A stretch of 64,000 nt of DNA from an uncultured Oscillospiraceae bacterium. GTDB lineage: Bacteria > Bacillota > Clostridia > Oscillospirales > Oscillospiraceae. The stretch covers positions 1-64,000 of the forward strand of contig CANQVL010000001.1 in assembly GCA_947627285.1 (NCBI GenBank), written 5' to 3'. Positions 15,979 through 61,619 of this stretch are shown one piece after another. The notes under the pieces were generated by a model. The model was not told where the DNA came from. It searched no databases and worked only from the letters and a program-made list of their open reading frames with translations. A program made the translations under genes and the position numbers. Each line of letters starts with the position of its first letter. The stretch's first letter is position 1.

Positions 15979-15987
15979 TTTTGTCAA
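15959..15987 (-). promoter_or_regulatory. Promoter of GntR/ABC operon
   Basis: Exact consensus TTGACA, 17 bp, TATAAT. A promoter this strong buried in two operators implies tight repression. Confidence 0.9.
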
Positions 15988-49658: not shown

Positions 49659-50297
49659 TCACTGATTGTCCTCCGGCGTCTCGCTGTTTTGCGTCTTTTT
49701 GAACGCGCCCTTCACTATCATTGAGTTCAGCTTCGCGGACATGGAGAAGCCCAGCAGGAGCCAAAAGGCAAGGACGCGTATAAACACCTCCACGCTCAGG
49801 AAAAAGACGATCACGGGAAAGAGCGCGACGGCGCTCATGAGAAGCCCCCGGATAAACATGATAGCTCCGAGGGTGACGGAATTGCGAAGCGTGGTACGCA
49901 CCGGATTTTCATAATGCCCCTGCAAAGGAAAGGCGAATGACGCCGCCGAAAGGCTGAGCAGGAGGACGATCACTATCCCAACCCAGACCAGAGTCTCGCC
50001 GGCAAAATCATATCGCAGGAGGAAATAGAGGTCCGCGCCCAGCACGGCCCAAACCGCCAAAAAAACCGCCCCGACGGCTGTCCCCTGCCCCAGGTTTCGC
50101 TTCAGCTCCCGGAAAAAGCGAAAAATCAGCCGCTCGTCCTGGGTGTCGTTGAGAAAGACCGCGCAGAGCGCCGATGTGGCGGCTCCAAAGCCCACCACCG
50201 TCAGACAGCACAGCATATAGCACAGATTCAGCACAAACATCCGCCAAACGAACCGGATCGCCTGCGCAAGGAAACCGTCATAGCTGAAAAACTTCAT
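49659..50297 (-). CDS. YesL-like (DUF624) membrane protein
   Basis: 212 residues, about five spans. FVWRMFVLNLCYMLCCLTVVGFGAATSALCAVF at 16-48 is the YesL/DUF624 start. Members occur with sugar uptake and degradation genes but have no proven function. Begins 7 bp after the kinase stop; last gene of the operon that starts with the glycyl radical activase. Confidence 0.88.
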   Translation of the reverse strand: MKFFSYDGFLAQAIRFVWRMFVLNLCYMLCCLTVVGFGAATSALCAVFLNDTQDERLIFRFFRELKRNLGQGTAVGAVFLAVWAVLGADLYFLLRYDFAGETLVWVGIVIVLLLSLSAASFAFPLQGHYENPVRTTLRNSVTLGAIMFIRGLLMSAVALFPVIVFFLSVEVFIRVLAFWLLLGFSMSAKLNSMIVKGAFKKTQNSETPEDNQ

Positions 50298-50304
50298 AGG
50301 GGTA

Positions 50305-51603
50305 TCAGTTCTCCTTCTCCAGCCCCGCGAAGATCGCGGCTCCCGCCGCCGCCTCCTCCCGACAGCGGCTCATGGTCAGCTCCTGACCGAAGGCGGAGGA
50401 GAAGCACCGGCGCAAAAACGGGTTTTTCCGCAGGCCGTTCCCGGAGCCCAAAAGCCGCCCCGGTGCTCCGCCGGAGGCGAGGTATTGCCCGTACATCCCG
50501 CGCAGCTCCGCCGCCATGCCCTCCATCACGCCCCATATGAGGTGGAGCGGGGTGAAGTTGTCGGTGCTCAGTCCCTCGATCTTCCCCCGGAGCGCGGGGT
50601 CCTCCCGCGTACCCTGGAAAAGCGGCGTCACCGCCGGAATGTCCGACGGCCTCCCCTCACGCTCAAGCAGGGCCGCCATCGCGTCATAGGCGCTCTCGGG
50701 CTCGTGACCCAGCATCTGTCCCACGGAGCGGAAAAACCGCTCCAGCAGGGCGTATGCCCGCCCTCCGCAGATGGACGCGCCGACAAGCAGATACCCCCCG
50801 CCGGGGAAGGGACGTGTCTCCAGCCCGTCACAGCGAAGGTATTGCCGGCTGTAAACGGAGAATTGACTGCCCGTGCCCACGTTGACCAGCATGGTCCCGG
50901 GCCCGCCTCCGGCGCCCAGGAAGCTCGCCTGGTTGTCGCCGATGGCTGTGTAAACCTCCCTGCCATTCCACTGGCCCATCGCAGAACCTGTGGAGAGCGC
51001 CGGGAGAATGGCGGGGTCGATACCGGCGCGCTCCATCGCCCCGGTGTCAAACCGTCCCCGCTCCACGTCGAATATGCCGAAGCTCGCGGCGTCGCTGGTG
51101 TCCGTCACGGGCCGGGTGAGACCGCTCAGGACCATGGCGGCGTAGTCGTGTATGGTGCACAGCGCCGCCGCGTCATACGGAACAAGACCGTTTTTCAGGT
51201 TGTAATAATGCGTCGCCATACCGTAGCCGGGCGCCACAGGCCGCCCGGTGATACGGCTCAGCTCGGCGGCATACGTATATCCGTCAGGGGCTGTCTGCTC
51301 CGCCCTGGCGTCCTGCCAGGTATAGAGCGGGCTCACCGGTTTTCCCGCGCTGTTGAGGTAGACTATGCCGTGCATCTGCCCCGTGAGGCCGATCCTCCGC
51401 ACCTCCGGGAAACGTCCCAACAGCTCCTGGGCTGTCTCGATCACAATAGACAGAATGCGGTTCGGGTCCTGGAGCCGTTCCCAGGGCTTATCTCCCGGCA
51501 AACGCGCGTCGTTGTCCCGCGTCAGGCTCTCCAAAACCTGCCCGTCCTCCGCCACCACCGCGCTGACGGTGGTGGTCCCAATATCCAGGCCGAGTATCTT
51601 CAT
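50305..51603 (-). CDS. FGGY-family carbohydrate kinase (sedoheptulokinase/xylulokinase-like)
   Basis: 432-residue sugar or polyol kinase. N-terminal phosphate loop GLDIGTTTVSAVV, LTGQMHGIVY, TWQDARAEQ, and catalytic Asp in AIGDNQASFLGAGG; NVGTGSQ is the second ATP loop. Slightly shorter than xylulokinases (about 500) and closest in feel to sedoheptulokinase-type members; substrate not certain. 9 bp after the glycyl radical enzyme gene, so its substrate or product is likely tied to that enzyme. Confidence 0.9.
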   Translation of the reverse strand: MKILGLDIGTTTVSAVVAEDGQVLESLTRDNDARLPGDKPWERLQDPNRILSIVIETAQELLGRFPEVRRIGLTGQMHGIVYLNSAGKPVSPLYTWQDARAEQTAPDGYTYAAELSRITGRPVAPGYGMATHYYNLKNGLVPYDAAALCTIHDYAAMVLSGLTRPVTDTSDAASFGIFDVERGRFDTGAMERAGIDPAILPALSTGSAMGQWNGREVYTAIGDNQASFLGAGGGPGTMLVNVGTGSQFSVYSRQYLRCDGLETRPFPGGGYLLVGASICGGRAYALLERFFRSVGQMLGHEPESAYDAMAALLEREGRPSDIPAVTPLFQGTREDPALRGKIEGLSTDNFTPLHLIWGVMEGMAAELRGMYGQYLASGGAPGRLLGSGNGLRKNPFLRRCFSSAFGQELTMSRCREEAAAGAAIFAGLEKEN

Positions 51604-51612
51604 ACCGTCTCC

Positions 51613-53988
51613 TCAGCAGCAGGTGGAGCAGGGGTCCAGGCGGGTGATGATGTCCTCCTGAATCGCGGGGCTCAGGTCCAGGAAATTGACGAAGGTGCCG
51701 TGGATGCGCATGATATACACCCCGTTGGGGGCGTATTTTTTCGGCTCCGCCAATACCTTGCGCAGTGTGTCCGCGGTGGTGACGTTGACATACAGATAGA
51801 AGGGCGCGCGCTTTTGGTTGTTGGGATTGAAGAACAGCGGCCTCACCACCCGCTCGTAGAACTGCACTCCCTTCTCCTCCGGGTCCTCTGCCGTAAAGAA
51901 TTTCGGATCTATGCCGAAGTGCGAGGCACAGCCGCCGCTCATCTTCTCAAAGGGCAGGCGCATGGTGGACAGCGTGCGGAAGCCCAGGCCCGAATCTGCC
52001 GTGCCGAAGAGCGGGTCGATGCCGTAGTTCATCATCTCCCGCGCGCTCCTGCCGTCGGGAGTGGCTCCCACCCAGTAGCCGTAGGTCAGGTGGGTGGAGG
52101 GTGTGCTCCAGTCAGGCCTGAACGGGTTGCCCAGATAGTTTTTGAGCCCCGCCACCATGTCGGAGACCCGCGACGCCACCTCCGCCGCCTCCCTGTCCGC
52201 CTCGGGGATATTGTTGCCGTATTTCGGGCAGGACTTCAAATACTCCCGCAGCTCCTCATAGCCCCGGAAGTCGCACCGGCAGGCGTCGATGAGCGCCTGG
52301 GCGTCCTCCGGGCGCTCCCGGAGAAGATGGTCCACGGCGACAAAGGAGTCCGCCACCACGGAAAGGCCGTGGATAAGGCACCCGCTGCCGTTGTATTTTG
52401 TCCCCTGCTCCTCCACGTCGCGCGTGTCCACGCCTGTCTCCAGGCCGCCGGAGAAGCTGCTGAGGAAGGGCACGGGAAGAAGGGAAAGCGCTTTGGAGGC
52501 GCCGTTTGCGGCGTCGCGCATCTGCTCGCAGAACCACTTAAGTCTCTCATAGAACAGAGGTCTCAGGTTCTCCAGGATATATTTTGCGTCCAGATCGCTT
52601 TGAGGTCCGATGGGCGCGCCGGTTATGGCGGATTTTCCGCCGGAGAGCGTCAGCTCCAGTATCTTTGCCATATTGAGCCAGCTGTTGGTGGTGTTTCCGT
52701 TGTCCTTGCCCATTATGAGGGGCTCCTGACAGCCCGCCACCGAATAGTCCGGCAGGTCCTCCGGGTCCACTCCGCGCTCCCGCAGTGTGGGGAAAAGGGA
52801 GTCGTCGTTGAAAAGCGACGGCGTAAGCGCCCCAGGCGTGAAGAAGAAGCGGCCCATTTCCCGATAGAGCCTTACCGGGGTGTTCTTATGGAGCTTCACC
52901 GACAGTATGGGCTGCGGAAGGTTCATGTCGTAGTAGGCGTCCAAAATGGCGTAGGTCATCTCGTTGGTCAGGTCCTGACCCTCCACGTCCCTGCCGCCCA
53001 GCAGAATGTTCTGGGATATGGCCCAGCTGCGCTCGCCCACGTTGTAGAACACCAGGAAGTGCTTGAACAGAGCCGCCGCCTCCTCGCGGGAAAGGCCGTC
53101 CATGGCGCGGTAGGGCTCAAAGATCCTGTCCGCGTTGCCCACGGAGAAGGCGAAGGGGTTGGGCGCCTGCTCCAGGCACATCACCTGCCACAGCAGTACA
53201 TAGGACTGAAGCGCCTCCAAAAGCGACCGGGCACCATACTCCGGCACGCGCCTCAGTGTCACCTCCATCAGCTCCAGCTCCCGGCGGCGCCGTTCACCGG
53301 CGGTTTTTTGCTGTTCCGCCGCCAGGTCCGCGTACCGCCCCGCCAGTGTCACGGCGCAGGCCAGTGCGCGGCGCATGGCTGTCAGGTTCTTCGCCTTTTT
53401 CTCGGTGAGGTCCCCGGCGGCGAGCCTCTTGTCAACGCCCTCCATAAGGGCACGGACGCCGTATTTCAGCGCCGGACGGAAGTCCGGGATCATGTGCCCC
53501 GTGACCTGCTCGATGAAAAACGCCACCTCGTCGGTGCAGGAGGCATAGGCGCTGTATACGCTGTTAAGCGACTTGACATATTCCCCCTCCGACGCCTTGG
53601 CGCGCATCGCCGCGATCCGCTCCAGCGATATGTCCCCGGCGGGCGTGGCATAGTCATAGACCTCCAGCGGGTCGCAGTAGCCGCGGAAGGTCTCCACCCT
53701 GAAGGCGGGATTTATCAGCGCGTAGCTGGCGGCAAAGGCGTCCCGCTGTGTCCCCGCCAGTATGGCGCTGTCGCTCAGCTCGATGGGGAGCTCACGGATG
53801 ATCGCCTCCAGCTCTCCCGCCGCCCTGAGCTCCGGGAAGGTCTCGCCCATGGTCCGGTCCGCCTCAGTCGCGATCTCGCGGGAGCGGAACCAGCCGTTGA
53901 GTATCTTGTGGTCCTCCCGCTCCTCCCTGTAAAGCCGCTTGGCTTTTTCGGTCAGAGCCTCCGGGGAGCAGATAGAAAACAGTTTCAT
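51613..53988 (-). CDS. Glycyl radical enzyme of unknown substrate (PFL/dehydratase family)
   Basis: 791 residues, cytoplasmic, oxygen-sensitive. Thiyl site SVAGCQEPLIMG with Cys420 and Glu422; the GCxEP form is that of eliminating members such as glycerol, diol or hydroxyproline dehydratases, not pyruvate formate-lyase. Glycyl radical motif RIHGTFVNFLDL with Gly764, 28 residues before the end; the residue after Gly is Thr where Tyr is usual. The chain ends CSTCC, an odd Cys cluster. Activase gene is 37 bp upstream, sugar kinase 9 bp downstream. I infer dehydration or cleavage of a polyol or sugar derivative. Confidence 0.9.
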   Translation of the reverse strand: MKLFSICSPEALTEKAKRLYREEREDHKILNGWFRSREIATEADRTMGETFPELRAAGELEAIIRELPIELSDSAILAGTQRDAFAASYALINPAFRVETFRGYCDPLEVYDYATPAGDISLERIAAMRAKASEGEYVKSLNSVYSAYASCTDEVAFFIEQVTGHMIPDFRPALKYGVRALMEGVDKRLAAGDLTEKKAKNLTAMRRALACAVTLAGRYADLAAEQQKTAGERRRRELELMEVTLRRVPEYGARSLLEALQSYVLLWQVMCLEQAPNPFAFSVGNADRIFEPYRAMDGLSREEAAALFKHFLVFYNVGERSWAISQNILLGGRDVEGQDLTNEMTYAILDAYYDMNLPQPILSVKLHKNTPVRLYREMGRFFFTPGALTPSLFNDDSLFPTLRERGVDPEDLPDYSVAGCQEPLIMGKDNGNTTNSWLNMAKILELTLSGGKSAITGAPIGPQSDLDAKYILENLRPLFYERLKWFCEQMRDAANGASKALSLLPVPFLSSFSGGLETGVDTRDVEEQGTKYNGSGCLIHGLSVVADSFVAVDHLLRERPEDAQALIDACRCDFRGYEELREYLKSCPKYGNNIPEADREAAEVASRVSDMVAGLKNYLGNPFRPDWSTPSTHLTYGYWVGATPDGRSAREMMNYGIDPLFGTADSGLGFRTLSTMRLPFEKMSGGCASHFGIDPKFFTAEDPEEKGVQFYERVVRPLFFNPNNQKRAPFYLYVNVTTADTLRKVLAEPKKYAPNGVYIMRIHGTFVNFLDLSPAIQEDIITRLDPCSTCC

Positions 53989-54025
53989 TCCCTATACATC
54001 CTTTCTTTTTCGTTCCATATTCTAC

Positions 54026-54751
54026 TTATGTGCGGACGACCTCGATGCCGGAGGCCCGCAGGATCTCCTCATAGCGCTCAAGGACGCTCAGCGGCACCTT
54101 AGCTGTTTCGTCCATGGTATAGGCAAGGCCCAGCTTTTTATATTTGTCCCTTCCGTACTCGTGGTAGCGCAGAAGCTCCACCCTCGCCCTTCCCGGTACT
54201 CCGATCTGCCGGAACAGGTCGGCAAATCGCGCCGCGTCCTCAAGGGAGGCGTTGAAGCCGCCGATAAGCGGGATGCGAAGGAGAAGCGGCTGTCCCGCCT
54301 CCAGAGCGGCTGAGGCGTTTTTCCATGTCGCTTCGTTCCCGCTCCCTGTCACCGCCCGGTGCTTCTCCCGGTCGTAGTGCTTTACGTCCATTATCAGCAG
54401 ATCCAGCGCCGGGAAAAGCTCCGGAAGCGCGGGACTTATCCCGTTTGTCTCAACGCAGGTGTTGATGCCGTCCTCATGGAGCCTTGTGAGAAGCTCCTTC
54501 ACCCGGGAAAGCTGCAAGGTGACCTCTCCGCCGGTGAGCGTGACGCCTCCGCCGTCAAAAAACATGAGACTGCTGTCCCTCGCCTCCGCCGCCAGCTCCT
54601 CCACGGTGTATTCCCTGCCCCCCGACAGCTCCAGCCCCTCAGGGTTGGAGCACCAGGGACAGCGCAGATTACAGCCCTGAAGGTGCCAGACCAGCCTGTT
54701 TCCCGGTCCGTCCTGGGAATAATTGAAGCCCTTTTGAAAAACCCGTATCAA
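54026..54751 (-). CDS. Glycyl radical enzyme activating enzyme (radical SAM)
   Basis: About 241 residues, the size of PFL-activase. GCNLRCPWCSNPEG gives Cys27, Cys31 and Cys34 for the 4Fe-4S cluster, followed by LTGGEVTLQ. The extra ferredoxin-like double-cluster domain of most dehydratase activases is absent, leaving a minimal form. I start at a TTG (54749-54751), 8 nt after GGGGAG, because the ATG at 54793 lies inside the -10 region of the promoter. First gene of the operon; it installs the radical on Gly764 of the next gene product. Confidence 0.93.
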   Translation of the reverse strand: MIRVFQKGFNYSQDGPGNRLVWHLQGCNLRCPWCSNPEGLELSGGREYTVEELAAEARDSSLMFFDGGGVTLTGGEVTLQLSRVKELLTRLHEDGINTCVETNGISPALPELFPALDLLIMDVKHYDREKHRAVTGSGNEATWKNASAALEAGQPLLLRIPLIGGFNASLEDAARFADLFRQIGVPGRARVELLRYHEYGRDKYKKLGLAYTMDETAKVPLSVLERYEEILRASGIEVVRT

Positions 54752-54783
54752 CTCGCGCGCTCCCCACTCTTCCTTTTTTAAGC

Positions 54784-54812
54784 AGTATACCATACCCGCC
54801 CCTATTTGTCAA
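54784..54812 (-). promoter_or_regulatory. Promoter of activase-GRE-kinase-YesL operon
   Basis: TTGACA, 17 bp, TATACT. The -35 is inside the left arm of the inverted repeat at 54804-54826. Confidence 0.88.
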
Positions 54813-54826
54813 TTCACTTGACAAAT
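54804..54826. promoter_or_regulatory. Regulon operator 1 (9-5-9 inverted repeat)
   Basis: Perfect arms ATTTGTCAA and TTGACAAAT separated by TTCAC, on the -35 of the glycyl radical operon. Nearly the same as the site at 56295-56317; likely bound by the ROK repressor encoded at 57529-58668. Confidence 0.8.
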
Positions 54827-54844
54827 TATTTTTGCAAAAGCCTG

Positions 54845-56212
54845 TCAGCGCAGTCCCGCCGGCGTCCCGCGGACGCCAAGTGCGGTCACCTCCCGGTCGT
54901 CGATCCCCGTTTTCACTCCGACCCACCGGATAAGCGGGACAAGGAGTATAAAAAGCATCGACTGCGACAGGAAAAGCACCGGCACACTGCCGAAGGAGAA
55001 GCCCGCCAGGTCCAGCGTACCGCCGCCCATGGCGCTCACGACCCAGGTCCCGATACCCATGCCCGTCAGCGCGCACAGGTGGCTCAGGAGCTGATAGAAG
55101 GAGAGATAGCTTGTTTTGTTCTCATCCGGCAGGGCCAAATAGATGAGGTTGCTCACGGTTATCACAACGCCCAGGTTCACGGTATTTTGTATGAGCTTAA
55201 CCCCCGCCATCACCCAGAAGTAGTTTGCGGGGGTCATAAAGGCGTGTATCGCGTAGCTGGGGACCATCAGAAGCTCCACCAGCGCCAGCGCCCTGAAGGT
55301 CCCGAGCCGCCGCTTTACCCCCGCCCAAAGTGCGCTTGTCGGCAGGATAAACAGCACATAGCTCAAATTTACCGTGTTTATGTAGGTGTAGCTCACCTTC
55401 ACCGACTCTAAAAGCCACGTGACTATCACCGAGCTTTGCAGGTTGGAGATCACCGTATACAGGCTGTACACAAGCATGACCAGGAGGAACCGGCTGTTGG
55501 AGAATGGGATACGCAGAACGCTCAGCAGCGACGGGCGCTCCGAGAGCCTGTATTCCGGCTCCGGCGGCTTTTGCATAAAATATACGTCCAGAACCGCCAC
55601 CGCGAAGGAGGCGCAGCGCAGAGCGAGCAGCAGATTTTGACGGCTTTGCCCCTGCATACCGTCCGTAACAAGCCCCGCGACCACCAAAAACACCCCGGAA
55701 GCGGCGTTGGAGATGAGATTTGACGCCGTAAAATAGCCGCTTCGCACCTCCGGGTCCACGTATATCATGTGCCAGGCGGAATAGCCCGGCGAAAACAAAG
55801 CGTCGATCACGTTGGCGATGAAGACGATGACCACAAGCCCGACCATCCGTCCGACCCTCCCCTGGACGACCATCGGAAGGAAGGTCATACCCAGAATGTT
55901 CACCGTATAGTAGGCGATCCTCGCCCCGGTGAGAAGCCCCCGCCGCCTTGGGAAGCGCTCGAGTATCATGGGCGAAAGCAGGGAAAAGAGGCTTGCGATG
56001 TGGGGGATCAGCGTAAGCACCGAGATCCCCACGATGTCGATGCCGTAGCCCGCCAGATACCCCGAGTAAAAGAACCCTGTGGTAAAGCCGTTCACCACCG
56101 CCTGGGCTATAGAGGCAAAGAGCAGACAGCTTCTTGACCTGCCGTGCCCGTCTTTGAAATTAAACACCGCGTACCATGACGACGCCCTGTAACGGTCCCT
56201 TATCCACTTCAT
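54845..56212 (-). CDS. MFS transporter
   Basis: 455-residue membrane protein with about twelve spans. The loop SPMILERFPRRRGLLTGARIAYY after span 2 is the MFS-type basic motif; no family-specific sugar signature is clear. I start at MKWIRD (ATG 56210-56212), 9 nt after GGAGG. It has its own promoter, divergent from the isomerase gene with which it shares an operator. Its stop is directly followed by operator 1. Likely importer for the cluster substrate, by context. Confidence 0.85.
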   Translation of the reverse strand: MKWIRDRYRASSWYAVFNFKDGHGRSRSCLLFASIAQAVVNGFTTGFFYSGYLAGYGIDIVGISVLTLIPHIASLFSLLSPMILERFPRRRGLLTGARIAYYTVNILGMTFLPMVVQGRVGRMVGLVVIVFIANVIDALFSPGYSAWHMIYVDPEVRSGYFTASNLISNAASGVFLVVAGLVTDGMQGQSRQNLLLALRCASFAVAVLDVYFMQKPPEPEYRLSERPSLLSVLRIPFSNSRFLLVMLVYSLYTVISNLQSSVIVTWLLESVKVSYTYINTVNLSYVLFILPTSALWAGVKRRLGTFRALALVELLMVPSYAIHAFMTPANYFWVMAGVKLIQNTVNLGVVITVSNLIYLALPDENKTSYLSFYQLLSHLCALTGMGIGTWVVSAMGGGTLDLAGFSFGSVPVLFLSQSMLFILLVPLIRWVGVKTGIDDREVTALGVRGTPAGLR

Positions 56213-56275
56213 TGTGACCCGCCTCCGACGCTGGAGGGAACGTGAAAAACCTGTCCCCGCCCCCAAATTTAGCAC

Positions 56276-56303
56276 AGTATAGCACGTTCTTTTCATATGT
56301 CAA
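56276..56303 (-). promoter_or_regulatory. MFS transporter promoter
   Basis: TTGACA, 16 bp, TATACT; the -35 is inside operator 2. Confidence 0.82.
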
Positions 56304-56317
56304 GCGGATTGACAAAT
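56295..56317. promoter_or_regulatory. Regulon operator 2 (9-5-9 inverted repeat)
   Basis: Arms ATATGTCAA and TTGACAAAT separated by GCGGA; 17 of 18 arm bases match operator 1. The single site carries the -35 boxes of both divergent promoters, one in each arm. Confidence 0.82.
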
Positions 56318-56337
56318 TATTTTTTGTATTGTATAAT
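56309..56337 (+). promoter_or_regulatory. Promoter of isomerase-ROK-epimerase operon
   Basis: Exact consensus TTGACA, 17 bp, TATAAT. Confidence 0.9.
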
Positions 56338-56395
56338 AATTCAAAAGAACGTATACCCGCCTTCAAAATTGGCGGGAAATCGAGGAGGACAAATT

Positions 56396-57454
56396 ATGGA
56401 AAATCTACAGGAGCCCTGGCTGCGTCCGGTGTTTTTCCGCCGCAACCGGGTATACCGCGTTTACACCGGCGGGAAGCTGTTCCATGAGCTGTTGGGGGAC
56501 CCGCCGGAGGACGGGTACATGCCGGAGGAATGGATATGCTCCTCCGTTCACGCCGTGAACCCAGGTCACACGGACCCCCTGGAGGGTATCTCTCTGCGCC
56601 GCGAGGACGGCAAGCCGTTTCCCGAGCTTTTAAACGAGCACCCCAAGGAATATCTGGGCGAGCGCCGCGACCTGGGCGTGCTGGTAAAATACCTTGACAG
56701 CGCCATACGCCTGCCAATGCAGGCGCACCCGACCCGGGCCTTCTCCAGGGAGCACTTCCACAGTCCCTACGGCAAGGCCGAGGCGTGGCTGGTGCTCGCC
56801 GCACGTCCGGGGGCGTGCGTCTATTACGGCTTCAGCCGCCAGGTGACGCCGGAGGAATTTGCCGCCGCCGTAGCCGAGAGTGAGACGGACCCTGACGCTA
56901 TGACGAGGTTTGTAAACCGGGTGCCGGTGGAGCCGGGGGACGTATTTTTTGTCAGTGCCGGAATGATCCACGCCATCGGAGCCGGGTGCCTTATACTCGA
57001 GGCCCAGGAGCCCACGGATTTCACCATACAGCCGGAATACTGGTGCGGAAGCTACCATTTGAACAGCCAGGAGATGTACATGGGCCTCTCCCCCGAGACG
57101 GCGCTGGGGTGCTTCGACTTCACCCGTTTCGGTCCCCAAACCGTCGAGAACGGTCGGAAGGAGCCGGTAACGCTTTGGGAACGTGACGGCGTTTCCGCCC
57201 AGGTCCTCATCGGGCCTCGGGACACCGAGTGCTTCTCCATGACACGCTATACCGTTTACGGCGGTTCACTGACTATGGAGACGCCCGCCTCCATCTGGAT
57301 CTGCGCCGAGGGCGAGGGGAGAGTTTGCTCCGACGGATACGAGGAGCGGGTCGCGAAGGGCGACTATTTCTTCCTCCCTGCCGCCGCCGCTGGCAGGTGC
57401 AGGGTAGTAAGCGAAAAAAAGCTTACGCTCGTGTGCTGCGCCGGTGGGAATTGA
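56396..57454 (+). CDS. Class I mannose-6-phosphate isomerase-like protein
   Basis: 352-residue cupin-fold zinc enzyme family interconverting mannose-6-P and fructose-6-P. Zinc-ligand motifs MQAHPTRAFSREHF and GKAEAWLVL, then VSAGMIHAIGAGCLILEAQE. AGGAGG is 7 nt before ATG 56396. First gene of the + operon with ROK and epimerase. The C-terminal cupin half has changed somewhat (for example ending TLVCCAGGN), so another aldose phosphate is possible. Confidence 0.88.
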   Translation: MENLQEPWLRPVFFRRNRVYRVYTGGKLFHELLGDPPEDGYMPEEWICSSVHAVNPGHTDPLEGISLRREDGKPFPELLNEHPKEYLGERRDLGVLVKYLDSAIRLPMQAHPTRAFSREHFHSPYGKAEAWLVLAARPGACVYYGFSRQVTPEEFAAAVAESETDPDAMTRFVNRVPVEPGDVFFVSAGMIHAIGAGCLILEAQEPTDFTIQPEYWCGSYHLNSQEMYMGLSPETALGCFDFTRFGPQTVENGRKEPVTLWERDGVSAQVLIGPRDTECFSMTRYTVYGGSLTMETPASIWICAEGEGRVCSDGYEERVAKGDYFFLPAAAAGRCRVVSEKKLTLVCCAGGN

Positions 57455-57528
57455 GATAATAACAAGCTGATTTACCCTGTTTATTTGACCGCCGGCAGCG
57501 GCGAAAAGCCCGAAGGGAGCTGAAACGC

Positions 57529-58668
57529 ATGGCAATGACCCCGCGAAACGCAGAATACACAAAGGAGTACAACCGAAAGGCGTTTTTGCGCCTGCTCCGC
57601 TCCGGTCCCCTCTCCCGCGCGGAGGCGGCAAGGCGGACCGGGTTGACCAGATCCGCCGCCTCTCTCATCGCGGAGGAGCTGTTGGCTGAGGGGCTCATCG
57701 TTGAGACCTCCGCCACCGAAACAAAGCTGGGCCGCACGCCGGTCCCCCTGGCGCTTCGCCCCGACGCGGGGTACGCCGTGGGCATCTACCTGAACCGAGA
57801 CGGCTGTACGGCAGGGATCGTGGATATTTGCGGCAATACGGTCTCCCAGCAGCGGCTGAGGATGGGCGATTGGGACGTGACAAACAAGATCGAGCGATTG
57901 GTGGAATGTATCCGCGGAATGCTTGCGGACTGCCAACTCCCTCGGGAGCGTCTGGCGGGGGTGGGGATCTCCGCGCCCGGACCGCTGGACGGCGAGAGCG
58001 GACATATTTTGAACCCGCCCAAATTCCCGCTGTGGAACAACACGAAAATCGGCCCCATACTGGAGGCGGAGCTGGATATGCCTGTATATCTGGAGAACAA
58101 CGCCTCCTGCCTCGCCCGGTACAATCTGGGCAAGCCGGAGGCGAGGGGGAGCGAAAGCTTCCTCCTGCTCCTGGTGGACAGCGGCGTGGGCTCGGGGGTC
58201 GTCATAAACGGCAAGTTGCTCAAGGGCGCCGGATATTTCACCAGCGAATTGGGCCACACCTCCATCAATTACCGGGGCAAGCGCTGTGCCTGCGGCAACA
58301 TCGGGTGTTTGGAGGCGTACGCCGCCATTCCCAATCTGCTCCAGGGCACCGGCTTCTCGAGCTGGCGGGAGGTCATGGACACCGTGTCCTTCGACAAGCT
58401 CGCCGGGAAGCTCATGAAGCTTGAGGCGGAGTATCTTTCCGCCGGGATCGTCACCATGTGCAATCTGGTGAGCATTGACACGGTGCTTCTCGCCGGGGAC
58501 CTGCTGTACGGCGCGGATACCTTCGCGCCGCTTTTGGAGAAGCACGTCAACGCCCGCAGTCTCCGCCGGGAGATGCTTCCCGTGCGTGTCCTACCCTCCA
58601 AGGCCGGCGCCGACGCGCTCATAGGAGCGGCTGCCGACATCGCCTTTGACAGATACCTCATGGTTTGA
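57529..58668 (+). CDS. ROK-family transcriptional repressor (NagC/XylR type)
   Basis: 379 residues. N-terminal winged helix RLLRSGPLSRAEAARRTGLTRSAASLIAEELL, then an ROK sugar-kinase fold with LLLVDSGVGSGVVINGKLL, GHTSI and the zinc site CACGNIGCLEAYA. Such proteins repress sugar genes and release DNA on binding a sugar or sugar phosphate. It lies in the operon controlled by operator 2, so it probably regulates itself and both divergent arms. AGGGAG precedes the ATG; 74 bp after the isomerase. Confidence 0.93.
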   Translation: MAMTPRNAEYTKEYNRKAFLRLLRSGPLSRAEAARRTGLTRSAASLIAEELLAEGLIVETSATETKLGRTPVPLALRPDAGYAVGIYLNRDGCTAGIVDICGNTVSQQRLRMGDWDVTNKIERLVECIRGMLADCQLPRERLAGVGISAPGPLDGESGHILNPPKFPLWNNTKIGPILEAELDMPVYLENNASCLARYNLGKPEARGSESFLLLLVDSGVGSGVVINGKLLKGAGYFTSELGHTSINYRGKRCACGNIGCLEAYAAIPNLLQGTGFSSWREVMDTVSFDKLAGKLMKLEAEYLSAGIVTMCNLVSIDTVLLAGDLLYGADTFAPLLEKHVNARSLRREMLPVRVLPSKAGADALIGAAADIAFDRYLMV

Positions 58669-58693
58669 GCGCCATACGGCGGAAGGAGAAAAT

Positions 58694-59572
58694 ATGGACC
58701 ACACCATTCAAAACGAATTCCTCACCGTCTCCGCCGCGACGCACGGGGCGGAGCTTCAGTCCATCCGCGGCGCTGACGGCATCGAGTACCTTTGGCAGGG
58801 CGACCCGGCATATTGGGCGGACCGGGCAATCAACATCTTCCCCTTCGTGGCGCGTCTGGAGGGTGGAAGGTTCACCTGGGGCGGGGAGACATACGAAATG
58901 CGTATCCACGGCATCGCCTGCTACAGCGATTTTCAGGTCATCGAGAACACCGGCACGCGCCTGGCGATGGAGCTTGTATCGGGCCCGGAGACGTTGAAAA
59001 GCTACCCCTGCCGGTTCGCCTTTCGGGTGATCTACGAGCTTGAGGGACGGACCCTTATGATAACCTACGAGGCGGAAAACCGGGACGAGAAGACCATGTA
59101 CTTCGGTCTTGGCGGACACCCCGGCTTCAACGTGCCCATAAGACGGGACCTTCGGTTCGAGGACTACCGCCTGCGGTTCACCAGTCCGCGGCCTGCCCGC
59201 CGTGTGGGCTTCAATGACGACTGCTTCGTGACCGGTCAGCTCCTGCCCTACGCGCTGGAGGGCGGCGCCGTTTTGGACCTCCGCCACGACCTCTTTGACA
59301 ACGACGCCATAGTGCTGGAGGGCACGTGCCGGGAGGTCACTGTAGAGACGCCCCTGGACAGCAGGTCTGTCACCGTCTCCTTCCCCCAGATCCCCTATCT
59401 GGGCCTCTGGCACAAGCCGAAAAGCGACGCCCCCTACGTCTGTATAGAGCCCTGGTGTACCCTCCCCGGAAACGCCGGCGAGCTGACAGCCCTGGACAAG
59501 AGGCCGGACCTTCTCCATATAGAGCCCGAAAAAATCTATCGAACCACTTGGAAAATAACAGTTAATACGTAA
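58694..59572 (+). CDS. Aldose 1-epimerase-like protein (GalM/LacX family)
   Basis: 292 residues. Mutarotase-fold marks: TVSAATHGAELQSIRG, YLWQGDPAYWADRAINIFPFVARL, MRIHGIACYSDF (catalytic His) and FGLGGHPGFNVP, with Glu in LGLWHKP...CIEPW. Interconverts alpha and beta anomers of sugars or sugar phosphates. GGAGAAAAT precedes the ATG; 25 bp after the ROK gene, last gene of the operon. Confidence 0.9.
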   Translation: MDHTIQNEFLTVSAATHGAELQSIRGADGIEYLWQGDPAYWADRAINIFPFVARLEGGRFTWGGETYEMRIHGIACYSDFQVIENTGTRLAMELVSGPETLKSYPCRFAFRVIYELEGRTLMITYEAENRDEKTMYFGLGGHPGFNVPIRRDLRFEDYRLRFTSPRPARRVGFNDDCFVTGQLLPYALEGGAVLDLRHDLFDNDAIVLEGTCREVTVETPLDSRSVTVSFPQIPYLGLWHKPKSDAPYVCIEPWCTLPGNAGELTALDKRPDLLHIEPEKIYRTTWKITVNT

Positions 59573-59585
59573 ATACAAGCAAACA

Positions 59586-59630
59586 AAAAACGATCGGAGG
59601 TCAGGTACAGCCTGACCTCCGGTCGTTTTT
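59586..59630 (+). terminator. Terminator after epimerase
   Basis: Long hairpin AAACGATCGGAGGTCAGG/CCTGACCTCCGGTCGTTT, loop TACAG, then TTTTT. It may also stop convergent transcription from the GH gene. Confidence 0.9.
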
Positions 59631-59687: not shown

Positions 59688-61589
59688 TTATCTCACGTAG
59701 TCGTCCACGCCTGCCTCTAGGAGGGCGGCGGCGGTGACTATCATCACGGCAGTGCCGGTGGTGTTGCACTGCTGAGGCGTGCTCCCGCCCGCCGTCCAGA
59801 TGGACCCCGCCGCGTCGGGGGGACCGCTCCAGGTGCCGCCGTAATACCCGTCCTCCGTCCTGTCGTTGGTGACAATGGAGCGGGCGGTGGCGTAAAGAAG
59901 CTCCCGCATCTCCTCCGTCCCCGGCAGGGACAGCACATCGGAGACGTAAAACGCCGTGAAGGTCCCGTTCGTCCAGGCGTCCCTGTCGTCCAGGAGAACG
60001 CCGTTGTCATTGTAATTTGCCAGTATCCCCCGGGTGGTGCGGTACGCCCGGTCCAGGTACTCCTTTTCGCCGGTCGCCCGGTAAAATTTAACCGACAGCG
60101 ACGCCATGCCCATGTTTGCCGTCAAAAATGAGTTGCTTGCCGCCTCATGTATGCTCAGCGCCGGGGGATTGTCGGAGAATATCTCGTCCAGGCTCTCGAC
60201 GTAGTATATCCCGTCCTCGCGTCCCAGCCTTTTCTGCATCCTCTCATAGGACGCCAGCGCCTGGTCATAGAATCTCTGCTGACCGGTGATCTCCCAGATT
60301 CGCATCCAGCTCAGGGCGATGCCCACCTCGTAGAGGGACATGGACGTGGAGTTGTCGCCGTAGTACATCATGTCCTTGTCGGGGTCGTACCACCTGGAGT
60401 AGGTGTTGTCAAGCAGATTTATCGCCCGCTTTAGGAACCACTCGTCCTGGGTCACCGTGTAGAAGGTGAGAAGCATCATGGCGTTCCAGGAGCAGTCGTC
60501 CGAGGCCCAGTTGAAGTTGCCGCCCGCGTTTTCCAGCTCCCAGGGCTGGAAGTCCTCCCGGAAAAAGCGCGCCTCGGCCCTGAGCATATCCTCGTATACG
60601 CTGTCGCCCGTCAAAAACCACATATCGTAAATGCCGAACACGAGCATTGAGGTCTCCCAGATGGACCCGCGTGGGTCCGGCAGGTCGTCTCCGGGTAGGC
60701 CGTTCCAGGTGGGAACGAGCTTGCCGGTTTTCAGATCGCCTGTCCAGAAATTTTTCCTCACGTCCTTTTGCGCCTGCTCGGCGATGCGCAGGTAATAGCC
60801 CCGGTCCTCGGGGGATATTTCGCTCAAAAGCTGCTCCATTTCGTTCAAGGGCTTTTCCAGCTCCTCCTTTTTGAGGTCGGAGAAGGCGATCTCCGGACAT
60901 TCCGTCCAAAAGCCCACGCGCACGGCCTTGCTGAAGTCCCTGTTTGAGATCTCCTCCGTCACCGCCTCGGCGAGCACCGAATCCGACTGGGAAAGGCTCA
61001 AACGCATGACCGTCTCGTCGCCCGAACGGCTCACGGACAGAAGCAAAGGCTTGCCCGTATCGACCGTCACGGGCTTTGCGTCCTTCAGAACGGATTCCCT
61101 GTCCTCCGTTCCCTTGAAGCGGCAAGCCGCAAGACGTATGGCGCCGTCCTCCCCCGCCTCTATGCCGGCGGAGAGCGCTGGCCTGCCGTCAGCCGTTCCA
61201 AACAGGATATATCCGAAGCCTCCGGCGGGCACGTCCCCGGAAAGCTCCAGCCGGACGCTGACCGTCCAGCCCCAGGAGTCCCCCGGAGCGCAGGCGTCGT
61301 CCCAGACAACGGGGCCGTCGTCGGTCTTATCCTCGCCGTCGTCCTTCGGCGTCTCGCCGCCGGGTACATCCCCGCCGCCGGGTGCGTCCGTATCGGAACC
61401 GGTGTCCCCCTCGGGCGGGGACGCCTCTCCGCCCCCTTCGGGCGGGGACGTGCCGGCGTCTCCGTTGGGAGGAGAGGCGGTATTGTCCCCGTCAGGGGTC
61501 CCGGACGGCTCCGCCGGACCGCCGGAACAGCCTCCGAGAAGGCTCAGAACCATGGCGGTCATCAGGAGCAGCGCCCAAATTCGTTTCAT
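59688..61589 (-). CDS. Lipoprotein glycoside hydrolase, six-hairpin fold (GH76-like)
   Basis: 633 residues. Lipobox LSLLGGC with Cys21, then a Pro/Gly/Ser/Asp-rich linker (about 22-95), a beta-rich domain (about 95-245), and an (alpha/alpha)6-type domain (about 255-633). NFNWASDDCSWNAMMLLTFY carries an Asp pair like the catalytic pair of GH76 alpha-1,6-mannanases; other helical-barrel families are possible. AAGGAGG lies 7 nt before ATG 61589. 30 bp after the surface-protein stop, so cotranscribed with it. Acts outside the membrane. Confidence 0.72.
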   Translation of the reverse strand: MKRIWALLLMTAMVLSLLGGCSGGPAEPSGTPDGDNTASPPNGDAGTSPPEGGGEASPPEGDTGSDTDAPGGGDVPGGETPKDDGEDKTDDGPVVWDDACAPGDSWGWTVSVRLELSGDVPAGGFGYILFGTADGRPALSAGIEAGEDGAIRLAACRFKGTEDRESVLKDAKPVTVDTGKPLLLSVSRSGDETVMRLSLSQSDSVLAEAVTEEISNRDFSKAVRVGFWTECPEIAFSDLKKEELEKPLNEMEQLLSEISPEDRGYYLRIAEQAQKDVRKNFWTGDLKTGKLVPTWNGLPGDDLPDPRGSIWETSMLVFGIYDMWFLTGDSVYEDMLRAEARFFREDFQPWELENAGGNFNWASDDCSWNAMMLLTFYTVTQDEWFLKRAINLLDNTYSRWYDPDKDMMYYGDNSTSMSLYEVGIALSWMRIWEITGQQRFYDQALASYERMQKRLGREDGIYYVESLDEIFSDNPPALSIHEAASNSFLTANMGMASLSVKFYRATGEKEYLDRAYRTTRGILANYNDNGVLLDDRDAWTNGTFTAFYVSDVLSLPGTEEMRELLYATARSIVTNDRTEDGYYGGTWSGPPDAAGSIWTAGGSTPQQCNTTGTAVMIVTAAALLEAGVDDYVR

Positions 61590-61619
61590 CAAATGGCCTC
61601 CTTTTCTGAGGGGTCCGGC

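Follow-up and report, generated by a model that had tools for sequence, protein, structure and literature searches.

Glycyl radical enzymes (GREs), which are sensitive to oxygen, start much of the anaerobic chemistry of the gut, and new members have repeatedly exposed unknown nutrients. Inositol breakdown proceeds without a radical enzyme, through the dehydratase IolE, the isomerase IolB and the kinase IolC. PMC12441222 presents YbiW and PflD, two GREs of gut bacteria, as eliminases that act on sugar phosphates. PMC11528403, from 2024, gives RVXG[FWY] as a highly conserved GRE fingerprint and describes the aminoacyl radical enzymes (AAREs), another set of GRE homologues that breaks it. Here we describe a PFL-like GRE and its partner genes in an uncultured Oscillospiraceae bacterium (GCA_947627285.1, contig CANQVL010000001.1); the whole stretch of DNA analysed, positions 1-64,000 of the forward strand, is referred to as the window. 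Computation established a GRE family with its residues and a GRE fold, the co-occurrence of three enzymes and a conserved palindrome. The reading that we favour, with somewhat less than even confidence, is that the GRE belongs to an uncharacterised family of radical eliminases and opens a dehydratase-isomerase-kinase route for a sugar or polyol under the control of a ROK repressor.

The glycyl radical enzyme and its relatives

When 84,980 species genomes were searched, 278 stretches were found to encode a GRE relative at E 1e-3. Of these, the top 80 (L041-L120) were retained; the counts given below thus apply to the nearer part of the set, and some of the remaining 198 may be other GREs. The 80 relatives were 61-81% identical to the window GRE and were mostly labelled Oscillospiraceae, Clostridia, Clostridiales or other Bacillota (two as 'bacterium' only), many of them from the guts of ruminants or other animals. 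Matches with an E-value no higher than 1e-100 were present in 10 of 394 genomes of the order, one being the window's own genome and the other nine showing 61-79% identity, and among 398 genomes of the phylum in the own genome alone. No close homologue was found in 33 genomes of the same genus, a search of the own genome with PF02901 revealed no second GRE, and the next-best GREs in 60 related genomes were at most 31% identical to the window GRE.

A preliminary description of the cluster had left the enzyme unassigned, and its position outside the characterised families tested was borne out by profiles and phylogeny. The top NCBIfam match was the broad model TIGR01774, with 244 bits against a cut-off of 678, and the equivalog models for HypD, CutC, HpfG, HpsG, IAD, HPAD and PFL gave 33-178 bits against cut-offs of 994-1150 (162.7 against 1100 for the HypD model NF043068). 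Ten other GREs of the same order, scanned out of 21 fetched, scored 467-931 bits with TIGR01774, and the second GRE of locus L049 scored 358 bits; the window GRE is therefore unusually distant. Among the ten, a HypD (1414.8 bits) and an HpfG (1048.5 bits) were recognised outright, indicating that the NCBIfam test works. In a PDB sequence search, the best match was propanediol dehydratase 9rco (197.5 bits), and there was no close clustering with isethionate sulfite-lyase 7kq3 (132.7 bits) or with propanediol dehydratases 5i2a and 9rco (171.6-197.5 bits) over 791 residues. Foldseek identities to the structures of these two enzymes were 21-23%; their sequences were left out of the GRE tree. The maximum-likelihood tree used 37 of 40 rows, three false frames having been removed beforehand. 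The eight family members were found on one branch of length 2.29 with a support of 100/100, and the sister group of the family was placed with a support of 91/79 or lower. These findings support the assignment of the window GRE to a separate, tight clade outside every characterised family tested.

The motifs GCQEP and RIHGTFVNF were both kept in all 80 relatives. Gly764 and Cys420 align with the catalytic Gly and Cys of GREs, and GCQEP, which places Cys420 and Glu422 exactly where the preliminary description had them, aligns to the GCxE of YbiW, PflD, HypD and HpfG. The glycyl loop departs from the motif taken as the mark of GREs: the family has RIHGT where the fingerprint has RVXG[FWY], and [YFW] follows the Gly in all 29 non-family GREs of the alignment. 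Three members were scanned with the Pfam Gly_radical profile (PF01228), which was not listed for the window GRE or that of L054 and gave 12.9 bits for that of L097 against a cut-off of 22.2; the controls YbiW, PflD, HypD and a divergent GRE scored 113.5, 108.2, 126.8 and 74.4 bits, respectively. Because the profile misses it, the RIHGTFVNF family may easily be overlooked. AAREs replace the Gly with Ala, Ser or Thr, whereas the window family keeps it in 80 of 80 relatives and has changed the surrounding residues. The family is therefore not one of Ala, Ser or Thr aminoacyl radical enzymes, and its loop raises the question of what role the residues around the radical glycine play.

Placement in the GRE superfamily rests on PF02901 together with the GRE fold, on the catalytic Gly and Cys and on the adjoining radical SAM activase. 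The AlphaFold2 model of the window GRE (pLDDT 83.3, pTM 0.88) had GRE eliminases as its nearest solved folds. The altered glycyl loop could mark another reaction, such as carbon-carbon cleavage, epimerisation or another sugar rearrangement, instead of elimination; this is improbable, since the top-ranked folds and the His, Cys and Glu set are those of eliminases. We infer eliminase chemistry acting on a sugar or polyol substrate. The B12-independent glycerol and 1,2-propanediol dehydratases (1r8w, 5i2g, 9rco) are about 25% identical to the window GRE, which in the alignment has Thr434 at the position of Asp447 of glycerol dehydratase, a position that we take to have a functional role. Unlike these dehydratases, the window family has the altered glycyl loop, and 7 of the 10 genomes with the GRE have no bacterial microcompartment (BMC) shell genes.

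A second GRE clade (support 100/100), also without assigned function, comprises L048:5090-7117, L049:662-2725 and a member in L131. It is marked by a Trp-rich loop, R[IV]WGW, and by AACWE where the window family has AGCQE; in L048 and L049 it lies near the window-family GRE and is accompanied by its own activase. In addition, L064:14882-17497 is an 871-residue open reading frame (ORF) with a start that may resemble an AraC-type helix-turn-helix; the rest of the ORF matches GREs.

Conserved partners and the proposed route

Genes in the loci were counted by tblastn at E 1e-10, because the ORF caller tends to choose spurious long frames where loci are rich in G+C. Homologues were found in the 80 loci for the activase (77), the FGGY kinase (71), the mannose-6-phosphate-isomerase-like (PMI-like) protein (30), the ROK repressor (16), the aldose epimerase (3) and the YesL-like protein (3), and a counterpart of the window-type MFS transporter was found in none. 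When only the 58 loci flanked on each side by more than 3 kb were considered, the numbers within 6 kb of the GRE were 57, 54, 29, 12, 2, 1 and 0, respectively. In Bacterium 1XD8-76 (L084), the GRE and the activase are present, and the 22-kb locus yielded no FGGY gene. The conserved module consists of the activase, the FGGY kinase and the PMI-like protein and is smaller than the full cluster of the window; the other neighbours vary among the relatives' loci. These counts do not support the earlier proposal that the full gene set forms one pathway. Of the three neighbours singled out there as a check on the proposal, the kinase was conserved, the isomerase was present less often and the ROK gene was mostly missing. 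The activase of the window has no ferredoxin-type insert, and the extra Cys motif was missing in 61 of the 72 activases assessed (8 of the 80 were not assessed).

In a phyletic test of 30 genomes, FGGY homologues were present in 10 of 10 genomes with the GRE (42-100% identity) and in 1 of 20 without it (41%). PMI-like homologues of at least 49% identity were present in 8 of 10 and 0 of 20, respectively, and the remaining two GRE-positive genomes (G243 and G414) have PMI-like homologues at 37-38%. In genome G056, the PMI-like gene is on another contig than the GRE, so that linkage alone cannot explain the co-occurrence. The test is confounded by kinship, since the taxonomic family of the window holds 13 of the 20 GRE-negative but only 2 of the 10 GRE-positive genomes.

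The window kinase scored below every listed NCBIfam cut-off, and the motifs TGQ(M/Q)HG and GDNQAS, presumably those of ketose kinases such as XylB, were kept in 11 aligned members. The PMI-like protein scored below the cut-off of the ManA model (Table 1); its residues Q110, H112, E130 and H193, which we take to be the metal-ligand set, were invariant across eight members. Additional sugar genes in close relatives were PfkB kinases (L046, L047, L049), aldo/keto reductases (L047, L050), a class II aldolase (L048) and a D-lyxose isomerase (L066). The genes directly 3' of the FGGY gene in L096, L102 and L115 share similar starts; that of L096 is an arabinofuranosidase (NF051901, above cut-off), a possible clue to a plant sugar.

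In the route that we favour, the activase would form a glycyl radical on Gly764, which would generate a thiyl radical on Cys420. The thiyl radical would abstract a hydrogen from a carbinol carbon of the substrate, a sugar or sugar alcohol, and Glu422 would take the proton of the hydroxyl there; water, or a ring or ether oxygen, would leave the adjacent carbon, and a deoxy-sugar carbonyl compound would result. The PMI-like metalloenzyme would convert a pathway sugar between its aldose and ketose states, the FGGY kinase would phosphorylate the ketose so that ordinary aldolases could cleave it, and in the window's lineage the ROK repressor would control the route through the -35 palindrome. The proposed logic of dehydratase, isomerase and kinase is that of IolE-IolB-IolC, and the window cluster has none of the inositol genes.

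The order of the steps was suggested by PMI-like paralogues. In genome G414 (L164:1829-7455), a paralogue follows iolG, iolD and iolE (each above its NCBIfam cut-off) with one ORF between, in a slot that presumably would be that of the isomerase IolB. In G243 (L167), a paralogue stands in the same order behind genes that resemble the inositol genes; in both genomes it possibly substitutes for IolB. In G348:C50 (L166:345-3957), a GRE-like ORF is followed by one further ORF and then by a paralogue about 35% identical to the PMI-like protein of the window, which appears to be an independent association of the two. The own genome's second PMI-like gene (C10) is in another setting, near a likely lyxose isomerase recognised by sequence likeness only. 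The position of the paralogues behind dehydratase genes favours the order dehydratase, isomerase, kinase, and the evidence points weakly to the sequence GRE, isomerase, kinase, which we consider possible, if on the doubtful side.

The aldolases of the GRE-positive genomes were found to be patchy. An FSA-type aldolase was present in 4 of the 10 (own genome included; three of the four above the model cut-off) and DeoC (TIGR00126) in 5, and four genomes had neither. BMC shell genes, missing from the own genome, were in the three genomes that have them on contigs apart from the GRE. This patchiness of all three indicates that the product is not handled by one of them everywhere. As universal solutions, 2-deoxyribose-5-phosphate as the product (DeoC missing in 5 of 10 genomes, of which one is 68% and one 84% complete), an FSA-dependent route and a BMC-dependent route were each rejected.

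The preliminary description had the kinase and the isomerase acting first and the GRE last. Both are indeed recurrent partners, but that order is just one possibility, and the reverse fits the comparative evidence slightly better. With the GRE last, the PMI-like protein would turn an aldose into a ketose, the FGGY kinase would make a ketose phosphate, and the GRE would finally strip water or some other group from that phosphate. The ketose-kinase motifs of the FGGY protein and the co-occurrence of both partners with the GRE suit such a scheme; the lack of an aldolase recurring beside the GRE, the limited distribution of FSA-type and DeoC enzymes and the paralogues placed behind a dehydratase speak against it, and we consider it rather unlikely.

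The GRE could also join YbiW and PflD as a third lyase of anhydrohexitol phosphates: the FGGY kinase would replace the phosphotransferase system in making an anhydrohexitol 6-phosphate, and the GRE would open its ring to give 1-deoxyfructose 6-phosphate. The pathway of YbiW and PflD, anhydroglycolysis, needs an FSA-type aldolase. At E 1e-10, no such aldolase was found near the GRE in any of the 80 loci, whereas the YbiW-like GRE of genome G058 is followed after about 35 bases by an FSA-like gene. The partners of the window GRE are instead an FGGY kinase and a PMI-like protein. YbiW and PflD are 25-29% identical to the window GRE, and a lyase of this kind would leave the PMI-like partner without a role. 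This explanation is unlikely.

Since no transporter recurs and the flanks of the loci are variable, the module could act in the salvage or repair of an internal metabolite instead of on a nutrient taken up from outside. In the window, however, the module shares its operator with the ROK operon and the MFS gene, which suggests sugar import, and we hold a purely internal role to be improbable.

Returning to the favoured route, we think it conceivable, though short of probable, that GREs with the rebuilt RIHGTFVNF loop catalyse a new sugar or polyol reaction that supplies a radical version of the inositol route, and that the family is distributed across Clostridia from animal guts and digesters. 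Among the papers listed in a literature search by titles and the starts of abstracts, with subscription journals mostly outside its coverage, none dealt with this gene set. With 80 confirmed relatives (perhaps up to 278), strictly kept catalytic motifs and two recurrent partners, the substrate is open to direct attack.

The -35 palindrome and the ROK repressor

As the preliminary description had reported, the same inverted repeat, TTTGTCAA-N5-TTGACAAA, lies on the -35 of three promoters, and two copies were found to serve all three: those of the activase (TTGACA-17-TATACT), PMI (TTGACA-17-TATAAT) and MFS (TTGACA-16-TATACT) genes. With up to three mismatches, the window contained six matches compared to 0.16 expected from shuffles. 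Four of the six lie outside the two operator sites of the cluster, at 15982, 25498, 53562 and 63146.

The activase was usable in 76 loci (L030 plus 75 of the 80), and co-variation was examined in these, the palindrome being sought up to 300 bases above the activase. It was present in all 7 loci whose ROK protein is 43-61% identical to that of the window and in none of the 10 whose ROK protein is 29-39% identical; the division between these classes emerged from the data and was not fixed beforehand. Among the loci without a ROK match, 2 of 59 had the palindrome, one of them having just 301 bases of upstream sequence. The co-variation with a closely related ROK protein supports the latter as the binder, and the palindrome is probably the operator of the ROK repressor. 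A chance pair of back-to-back -35 boxes was rejected on the same counts. The operators of near relatives offer a ready reporter for an inducer search.

The cluster had also been proposed to form a single regulon. The resemblance of the repeat to a ROK operator agrees with this, but its distribution does not. In the own genome (G000), TGTCAA-N5-TTGACA was found at 61 sites with up to one mismatch (17 exact; control 0), compared to only three ROK-family genes, which weighs against a simple single regulon; the repeat alone defines no private regulon, and its being private to the cluster in this genome was rejected. Ten same-genus genomes had 8-33 sites, so that the own genome has about two to eight times their number, and G146, which also carries the cluster, had 4. 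Another 20 stretches of the own genome supplied 24 sites, of which 5 showed a -10-like hexamer (up to one mismatch, either strand).

Gene calls and adjoining features

Table 1. Features of the cluster in the window, with positions, strands and profile matches
Feature	Position	Strand	Match or remark
DUF624/YesL-like membrane protein	49659-50297	-	PF04854; lineage-specific
FGGY carbohydrate kinase	50305-51603	-	PF00370 (FGGY_N) 78.4 bits; PF02782 (FGGY_C) 49.7 bits
PFL-like GRE, 791 aa	51613-53988	-	PF02901, 364 bits
Glycyl loop RIHGTFVNF with Gly764	51682-51708	-	in 80/80 relatives
Cys-loop GCQEP: Cys420 (predicted thiyl radical), Glu422 (predicted base)	52720-52734	-	in 80/80 relatives
GRE-activating radical SAM enzyme	54026-54793	-	PF04055; TIGR02494, 178.7 bits (cut-off 174.35)
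Inverted repeat TTTGTCAA-N5-TTGACAAA, activase promoter -35	54805-54825	.	0 mismatches
MFS transporter	about 54845-56212	-	PF07690, 31.8 bits, just below cut-off 33.4
Second inverted repeat, between divergent MFS and PMI promoters	56296-56316	.	1 mismatch
Class I mannose-6-phosphate-isomerase-like (PMI-like) protein	56396-57454	+	PF21621; TIGR00218, 55.4 bits (cut-off 116.2)
ROK-family repressor	57529-58668	+	PF00480, 126.4 bits
Aldose 1-epimerase family protein	58694-59572	+	PF01263; lineage-specific

The cluster and all its gene calls were confirmed, every gene named in the preliminary description being present and typed as described there by profile matches; the true start codon of the activase may lie further inside its ORF. 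The ROK and epimerase genes are downstream of the PMI gene on the same strand.

Past the epimerase gene, a strong hairpin at 59586-59630 (20-base arms, 95% complementary) is probably a terminator. Adjoining the cluster at 59691-61592 on the reverse strand is a gene that probably encodes a lipoprotein; its match to GH76 is weak (26.8 bits against a cut-off of 25.9), and a stretch 28% identical to it was found beside the cluster of a relative, at L042:3428-4159.

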